From: Candidatus Binataceae bacterium
GTDB lineage: Bacteria > Desulfobacterota > Binatia > Binatales > Binataceae
NCBI GenBank assembly: GCA_030038355.1
Contig: JASHPB010000071.1
Location: 1 to 64,000 of the forward strand
DNA length: 64,000 nucleotides
Direction of reading: 5' to 3'
Part shown: positions 16,021 through 18,333 of the stretch, one piece after another
How positions within the stretch are numbered: the first letter of the stretch is position 1
How the letters are laid out: every line of letters starts with the position of its first letter
Program-made: the position numbers and the translations under genes
Notes under the pieces: generated by a model
What the model was told of the DNA's origin: nothing
Databases searched by the model: none
Seen by the model: the letters and a program-made list of their open reading frames with translations, nothing else

Positions 16021-17259
16021 ATGGCAAGTGCAGAGCGGCCGACTCCGGCGGCGCCGTTCGACCCAATGATGGGACGGCTCGAACTGATCGAGCCCGGCAT
16101 CGCAATGTTTCACGGCTTCGCTAACGTCGCGTTCGCGTACGGCCGCGGCGAGATGCTCGCGGTGGACACCAGCTCGCGCACGATGGGCGCGATGGCGGTC
16201 AAAGCTATCCGCGAAATAACCGACGAGCCGTTCGCGTTTCTGATCTACACTCATGGCCACGGCGATCACGCGTTTGGCACCGACGCGTTCCTCGAGGACG
16301 CCTTGTCGCACGGCTTCCGCCGTCCGAAAATCTGGGCGCATGAGGACGTGAGCGGCCGCTTTCATCGCTACGCGATGACACGCGGTTGGCAGTCGCACAT
16401 CAACCAGCTTCAGTTCGGCGCACGTGCGCCAGTCGACGGAATCTTCGACGAAAAATCGTTCCGCTATGCCGACCTCGCGTACCGCGACTACCAGACGCTC
16501 GAGCTAGTGGGCGAAGCCGTCGAGCTGCATCACGCGCGCGGCGAAACCGACGATGCCACCTGGGTCTGGATGCCAACGCGGCGGACCGCGATGGTCGGTG
16601 ACCTGATCGTTTCGTCGATGCCGAACACCGGCAACCCGAATAAGGTGCAACGCTTCACGCTCGGATGGGCTGAGGCCCTGGAAGCGATCGCGCGCAAGAA
16701 GCCGCGCTACGTGCTTCCCGGGCATGGCCCCGCATATCGCGGCGAGGACGCGTGCCAGGAGCTTCTTCTCGAGACGGCGCGCGCGCTCAGGTTCATCCAC
16801 GATGAAGTGGTGCGACGCCTCAACGCCGGCCAGTGGCCGGTCGAAATCGTCGAGGCGAATATCGAACTGCCCGCCGATCTTGCGGCGCAGCCGTTTCTTG
16901 CACCGATCTACGGATGCGTTCCATTCGTCGTGCGCGATGTCATCCGCTACTACGCGGGATGGTGGTCAGGGGAGCCGTCCGCGATGTTTCCCGCAACGCG
17001 TCGCGATCGCGCGGCGGACGTCATCGCCTTGTGCGGGCGCGATGCAGTCCTCGCGCGGGCGCGAGCGCTCCGCGATGAAGGCGAATTGCAGCGTGCGCTC
17101 GCGCTGGCTGAGACGGAGCTGAATGCCGACGTTAGCGATCGCGAGGCGATGGATCTCAACGCCGACATTTTGGAGAAGCTCGCGGCGCGCGAGCGCTCGT
17201 TTATCGCGCGCAACTTCTTCTCGGGCGCAGCGCGCGCACTTCGTGAAGGTCTGAAGTGA
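16021..17259 (+). CDS. MBL-fold metallo-hydrolase, alkyl sulfatase-like
   Basis: 412 aa; THGHGDHAFG metal-binding motif, VELHHARGETDDATWVW, VLPGHGP; C-terminal alkylsulfatase dimerisation-like domain. Confidence 0.88.
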   Translation: MASAERPTPAAPFDPMMGRLELIEPGIAMFHGFANVAFAYGRGEMLAVDTSSRTMGAMAVKAIREITDEPFAFLIYTHGHGDHAFGTDAFLEDALSHGFRRPKIWAHEDVSGRFHRYAMTRGWQSHINQLQFGARAPVDGIFDEKSFRYADLAYRDYQTLELVGEAVELHHARGETDDATWVWMPTRRTAMVGDLIVSSMPNTGNPNKVQRFTLGWAEALEAIARKKPRYVLPGHGPAYRGEDACQELLLETARALRFIHDEVVRRLNAGQWPVEIVEANIELPADLAAQPFLAPIYGCVPFVVRDVIRYYAGWWSGEPSAMFPATRRDRAADVIALCGRDAVLARARALRDEGELQRALALAETELNADVSDREAMDLNADILEKLAARERSFIARNFFSGAARALREGLK

Positions 17260-17286
17260 TCGCCCGATATCGCGACTCTCTTCGAG

Positions 17287-17327
17287 TCATTCCGAGCCAA
17301 AGGCGCCAGCAAGGCGAGGAGGAATGA
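17287..17327. repeat. Short palindromic repeat (family B, short copy)
   Basis: TCATTCCGAGC...GCGAGGAGGAATGA with central GGCGCC; same style of ends as the repeat at 35397-35536. Confidence 0.45.
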
Positions 17328-17382
17328 TCGCGGGGCGATATTCTGCGGCGCGCGGGGCTTTTGCGGCTCCTATTCAATTGCG

Positions 17383-17702
17383 GTGTCGACCGCAGCGGCC
17401 TTGTAGCAGCTTCACTCACCAGTGCCTCAGATTCCTCGCAGCATAGGCAGTCCCTTCGACGACCGCTTTGGGGAGTCTCGCCCACGGTGTTCACGCCCTT
17501 ACTTGTTGATGCCGGAACCGCGTCTTGCGACCCGTCCCACGATCCCGTTCGAGTCACCGCTCAACACCGGGCGAGGGCCTCTTAGATTCGAGCACTTCGC
17601 CTCATGGCCGCTGACGCGCACCTCTCCCCGAACTGGTCGCTCAACCTCTATCCCGCTAGATACTGCTGAGTGAAGGTCAGACAAGGCCGCTGCCGCCAAC
17701 AC
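17383..17702. mobile_element. 320-bp element with about 40-bp terminal inverted repeats (MITE-like or IS-derived)
   Basis: Left end GTGTCGACCGCAGCGGCCTTGTAGCAGCTTCACTCACCAG and right end (reverse complement) GTGTTGGCGGCAGCGGCCTTGTCTGACCTTCACTCAGCAG match at 32 of 40 positions by eye; flanked by direct TGCG on both sides; no convincing ORF inside. Confidence 0.6.
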
Positions 17703-17754
17703 TGCGGACGTAGTGCGCAACGAAATGCTCACGTGCCACCCAGAGCAGTATCAA

Positions 17755-18333
17755 TTATGGTTTCGCTGGACGTTGTGATGGATCCTTTTTCTTGCGCGGC
17801 GAGCGCTTGCGCGGCATCGCCGGCTTGAGCGCACCGTCAACGACGCCCCCCTGCAACGCGACGACGGTGATGGGAGGCCGCGGCTTTCGAATCGACGCAA
17901 CGACGTCGGCCAGCTCGATCGCGGGATTGCTGCGCGCACCGGCACTATCGATTTCGATCTCGCGCCCGATATCACTCAGCGAAATCAAGCCCGCAAGCTT
18001 GCCCGCCTCGTCAACCACGGGCAGCCGATGGACTTTCGCCTCGCGCATCAGCTTGAGCGCGAATGAAACCGAGTCATCCGGCCCGCACGTGACCACCTTC
18101 TTGCTCATTACTGGTTCGATCGCGATATCGAACAGCGGCCGACCCTGCGTGTAAGTTGCCATCGCGAGGTCGCGATCGGTGACAACGCCTACCACGCGCG
18201 TTTCTTCATCAACGATCGGAACGCACCCGCAGTCGTTCTCCCACATGATCTGCGCCGCGTCATTGATCGAACCCGCAATCGGGCACGACTTGACCGCAGC
18301 CGTCATTACTTCTGAAACCTTGCTCTGATTCAC
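17755..18333 (-). CDS. CBS-domain protein
   Basis: 192 aa with two CBS motifs: VSEVMTAAVKSCPIAGSINDAAQIMWENDCGCVPIVDEETRVVGVVTDRDLAMA and VMSKKVVTCGPDDSVSFALKLMREAKVHRLPVVDEAGKLAGLISLSDI; basic C-terminal tail. Confidence 0.92.
   Translation of the reverse strand: MNQSKVSEVMTAAVKSCPIAGSINDAAQIMWENDCGCVPIVDEETRVVGVVTDRDLAMATYTQGRPLFDIAIEPVMSKKVVTCGPDDSVSFALKLMREAKVHRLPVVDEAGKLAGLISLSDIGREIEIDSAGARSNPAIELADVVASIRKPRPPITVVALQGGVVDGALKPAMPRKRSPRKKKDPSQRPAKP

Follow-up and report, generated by a model that had tools for sequence, protein, structure and literature searches.

The closest described systems belong to two groups of small dispersed repeats. Bacterial MITEs are non-coding units of about 100–200 bp, mostly intergenic and containing stem-loops (review, PMC2229807), and REPs are inverted palindromes whose spread has been proposed to proceed via RAYT transposases (PMC2817692). 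The locus considered here lies in a Candidatus Binataceae contig, of which a stretch of 64,000 nucleotides (the window, whose numbering is used below) was analysed; the genome it belongs to, G000, comprises 5.05 Mb in 349 contigs and is about 93% complete. The original prediction placed at 17383–17702 a 320-bp non-autonomous element, MITE-like or the shell of an IS, with 40-bp terminal inverted repeats and a 4-bp target duplication, or alternatively a long structured RNA. The feature is real and the idea is partly right, but the unit is wrong; the region is very likely a mosaic of dispersed palindromic intergenic repeats, resembling BIME/REP doublets or decayed MITEs, situated between convergent genes, and the family that builds it, designated repeat B, is itself new but of an ordinary known type.

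The whole mosaic occupies the intergenic region 17260–17754 (about 490–495 bp) between the convergent stops at 17259 (+) and 17755 (−). The gene on the left (16021–17259, +) encodes an MBL-fold protein with an alkyl sulfatase dimerisation domain (Pfam PF00753, PF14863) and is 91% identical in a same-genus relative, the metagenome assembly G001; the convergent gene on the right (17755–18333, −) encodes a CBS-domain protein (Pfam PF00571, E 3.4e-30) and is 87–88% identical and found in the same place in the relative. The pairing of the 40-bp ends was confirmed exactly: positions 17383–17422 and the reverse complement of 17663–17702 are identical at 32 of 40 positions, with TGCG outside both ends, and extension gave arms of 44 nt at 17380–17423 and 17662–17705 (35/44, 80%). 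When the whole 64 kb was scanned for antidiagonals reaching 32/40 or more over spans of up to 320 bp, only this pair came up; in 12 sequences resampled from the window with a first-order Markov model, the best inverted match was 25–28, so the observed value outdoes all 12. It was also correct that no transposase ORF fits inside: the span is non-coding, and its 83-aa frame has no Pfam match. A decayed gene was rejected, since neither Pfam searches of the open frames nor a six-frame reading by eye gave anything; no tRNA was found inside the span, and plasmid and phage records gave no match to the region at distant settings.

In each arm, the outer 25 nt form the core of repeat B, a dispersed intergenic repeat, and a search with the arm's first 25 nt at a permissive limit found many matching places in G000 and G001. 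When up to two mismatches are allowed, the arm core GGTGTCGRCCGCAGCGGCC occurs 16 times in G000, 15 times in G001 and at background level in the other genomes of the family, while its reversed control gave no site in G000 or G001. A 95-position profile, R1, was built from 23 trimmed copies of repeat B, leaving out those of the window; at E ≤ 0.01 it detects 31 copies in G000, the best at E 8e-27, and 23 in G001, the best at E 8e-29. The family is directly observed to be multi-copy in both, whereas 31 other genomes gave only background, every match having E ≥ 4e-4. The 3′ module follows 25 of the 33 other cores, and on the upstream side there are two alternative modules, one found at 7 and the other at 9 of these cores; in the consensus, the core and the 3′ module each form a hairpin. 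Open frames over the B cores are short: their median length is 151 codons, compared with 194 for frames nearby and 413 for those of the window, although these lengths are limited by the shortness of the loci. Repeat B is a genus-specific repeat of about 95–230 bp with modules at both ends.

At the present locus, the upstream module (GTCATTCCGAGC...GGCGAGGAGGAAT) lies at 17286–17336 (+) and is of the type found before 7 of the 33 other cores; nhmmer, with a profile that included its own copy, matched 17283–17405 (E 1.4e-16). The first copy of repeat B follows at 17337–17428 (+), where R1, built without this copy, gave 29.3 bits (E 1.2e-7 in the window, 9.7e-6 in the genome); it begins 46 nt outside the left arm (17383–17422), which it contains. 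The alignment of 31 copies places a 23-nt segment with CTTCACTCACCAGT at 17404–17426 (+), where it separates the B core from the beginning of the 3′ module, and a truncated start of that module, TCAGATTCCTCGC, at 17427–17439 (+), is present in identical letters in another B copy, L126. The second copy, inverted and more decayed, lies at 17674–17747 (−), holds most of the right arm (17663–17702) and extends about 45 nt beyond it; nhmmer with a profile including its own copy matched 17773–17679 (E 8.7e-10), but the right arm alone scores only 14.0 bits with R1 (E 0.0082 in the window), which is a weak point of reading the arms as a pair of B copies.

Both arms thus run outward as repeat B, the left to about 17337 (17283 with the upstream module) and the right to 17747, and the B copies read side by side (..CGGCATGC..CACCATTGCGGTGTCGGCCGCAGCGGCCTTAGATTCCTCGCGCAGCGCTCGGAATGAC) cross the proposed border at 17383. 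Since the R1 matches cover 17337–17428 (+) and 17747–17674 (−), each proposed end falls within a repeat that extends about 45 nt farther out, and the claim that 17383 and 17702 are the ends of an element does not hold. The four bases before GTGTCGG in the 33 other cores are CGCG in 10, TGCG in 5 and CGCA in 2; TGCG accordingly belongs to the core of the repeat, and this explains why a target seemed to be duplicated: the TGCG on both flanks stands as a sequence feature but not as a duplicated target. The 'terminal inverted repeats' are very likely two opposite-facing copies of repeat B about 240 bp apart, interior sequence included, and not transposon ends.

These observations bear directly on the discrete non-autonomous element of about 320 bp (a MITE or IS shell with 40-bp TIRs and a 4-bp TSD), a reading that is already largely refuted and must be considered highly improbable. 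The inverted ends and the TGCG flanks are real, the spacer is shorter in the relative and the interior has a diverged counterpart elsewhere, but homology to other B copies crosses both borders, the TGCG belongs to the repeat, the 44-nt arm occurs at a single locus, and the interior copy has no such arm on its right, with 63 nt on its left before the contig ends. The arms lie within a longer repeat and not at the true ends of an element, the 320 bp do not form a multi-copy unit (repeat B alone does), and the searches turned up no complete IS with such ends, the composite arm being present at one locus among 33 genomes; given the completeness of about 93%, such an IS could lie in the missing part. 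What survives of the MITE-like or IS-shell proposal is that the sequence is non-coding and repeat-derived, is missing at the site in the relative and has multi-copy ends, whereas the discrete 320-bp unit, its TIRs and its TSD do not. Repeat B itself resembles MITE-like repeats such as Correia/NEMIS, ERIC, RUP and YPAL (PMC2229807) in being non-coding and intergenic, of the 100–200 bp order, with stem-loops and partly matching ends; it differs in having no TA ends, no A+T richness and no demonstrated TSD or parent IS, and its copies have diverged and are built of modules. What looks like a transposon with inverted ends can arise by accident, where two dispersed repeats come to face each other.

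What is peculiar to this locus is the composite arm and the sequence that it encloses. As a unit, the 320 bp occur once in G000, where only parts recur, and a search of 148 genomes of the class did not find the unit, only one further short match. A 35-nt match in G026 (89%, E 1.5e-4) was set aside as probable chance; it lies in what we take to be the end of an apparent PhzF-type gene, a name read from the letters. The composite 44-nt arm was found only at this locus among 33 genomes. The B core followed by CTTCACTCA occurs twice in the 33 genomes with no mismatches, both times here; the other five matches have three mismatches, and the control count was similar. The inner match of the arms, CTTCACTCA(C/G)CAGT, agrees in register at 14 of 19 positions, a value reached by 12 of 200,000 random 19-mer pairs, and the partner of the 23-nt segment 17404–17426 is found only in the right arm. 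The fact that CTTCACTCA(C/G)CAGT is missing from other B copies indicates that the likeness of the two arms goes beyond their both belonging to repeat B. Perhaps this additional match originated from an inverted duplication or from template-switch repair after the copies had landed, and would not be a remnant of an ancestral TIR.

The interior sequence D (17446–17632, +), which contains an internal inverted repeat (17477–17491 / 17563–17575), is 74% identical over about 136 columns (E 1.6e-15) to a diverged copy at the end of contig C145 of G000; the search match covers C145:63–195, and the copy is placed at C145:64–238 (L004:64–238). A sequence model of D, R2, has two matches in G000, in the window and on C145, and none in G001; the C145 copy lacks a B arm on the right side, and on the left side the contig ends after just 63 nt. 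Partial matches to the interior in L120 and L121 were set aside as short, coding-looking sequence. Farther along the same C145 locus, the stretch L004:329–420, in the first part of an OmpA-like lipoprotein gene, has 82–85% matches on C97 of G000 and C502 of G001 that are probably related genes.

Structure predictions allow the alternative of a long structured non-coding RNA to be assessed, and it is extremely unlikely. The whole 320 nt fold at z −4.3 (+) and −3.9 (−), but this low folding energy is due to the arms; the interior, on both strands and in both copies, has z −0.5 to 0.6, no better than shuffles. Two Rfam searches of the region gave no match, the unit is absent from the 148 genomes of the class, and neither an intrinsic terminator nor a promoter-like site was found in the spacer; the pairing in the interior alignment, which consists of only two sequences, was chosen by the program. 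The structured-RNA alternative is thus unsupported.

Inverted pairs of repeat B are directly observed on contigs C117, C135 and C83 of G000 and C86 and C367 of G001, those on C135, C83, C86 and C367 being four sites besides this locus, and their spacing varies; no convincing direct pair was seen among the copies compared. At locus L129, an inverted pair is formed by the upstream (left) module, with about 250 bp between its members. With its 31 and 23 copies in the two genomes, repeat B combines the dispersed, intergenic and palindromic nature of REPs and BIMEs with their alternating, inverted arrangement of units; it resembles them as well in being lineage-specific and in forming inverted pairs and modular mosaics. 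It differs from them in its number of copies (tens, compared with the usual more than 100), in the size of the unit (95–230 bp, compared with 20–40 bp) and in that the cognate RAYT transposase (PF01797) is found in neither genome.

A REPIN-like composite, in which two inverted B repeats captured D and moved together as a pair, is very unlikely. Inverted B pairs exist at four other sites, RAYT-linked REPs are known to occur as inverted pairs (PMC2817692) and a further copy of D exists in the genome; the spacing of the pairs is not constant, however, the C145 copy of D lacks a right-hand B arm, and no PF01797 transposase was found in G000 or G001. The Y1/REP (RAYT) transposase PF01797 was accordingly rejected as the mobiliser of repeat B, being absent from both genomes, while control genomes gave matches; the mobiliser has therefore either escaped identification, been lost, or is encoded in sequence that the assembly lacks. 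In the preferred mosaic of dispersed repeats, the B copies would have spread by non-autonomous transposition, with the enzyme supplied otherwise. No function would be required, and a weak effect on the 3′ ends of the mRNAs from the two convergent genes may exist. It seems unlikely that repeat B is a new genus-specific mobile palindromic family in Binataceae that spreads as inverted pairs, can capture the DNA between them and uses an enzyme other than Y1/RAYT; should complete genomes confirm that it spreads without a RAYT, a search for the enzyme that moves it would be worthwhile.

Several further palindromes were noted among the B-containing loci. In L113 (G000:C83:4500-5900), at about 612–723, two B cores stand head to head with a near-zero interior and make one long palindrome, and in L130 (G001:C86:6400-7900), an imperfect palindrome of about 200 nt (667–869) is formed by two adjoining inverted B copies. 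Palindromes of 75–90 nt were found beside B copies at L106:502–585, L125:494–581 and L138:487–561, those in L125 and L138 being of the GGCGGGCGTCCCCGCCCGC type; these probably represent another repeat family of the genus.

Comparison with the same-genus relative directly reveals a presence/absence difference. On contig C383 of G001, the gene order is kept, but the spacer is 113 nt long, compared with about 490–495 nt, and the alignment ends a few bases from both genes. The spacers themselves do not align and so provide no base-level empty site; insertion here and deletion there cannot be distinguished by sequence alone, and a single relative cannot polarise the change. A second B site (G000 C221:18566–18660) is absent in G001, where the corresponding stretch measures 146 nt, compared with 622 nt (C221/C203), while another B copy is common to an orthologous site in both genomes (L116/L125). 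With one copy shared and two sites differing, the family appears to be old enough for partial sharing and to have been gained or lost at sites since. Repeat B represents a new palindromic repeat family for a genus of Candidatus Binataceae and could act as a lineage marker.

Two observations on individual loci may be added. A tandem array of 72-bp units in L140 (G001:C400:5900-7900, about 780–1220) resembles a Gly/Ala-rich coding repeat and was rejected as a relative of repeat B, since it looks coding and unrelated. The loci L110 and L112 (G000:C252 and C310) contain two 1.1-kb stretches that are 96% identical, one of them at a contig end, which points to a recent duplication or to mixed strains.
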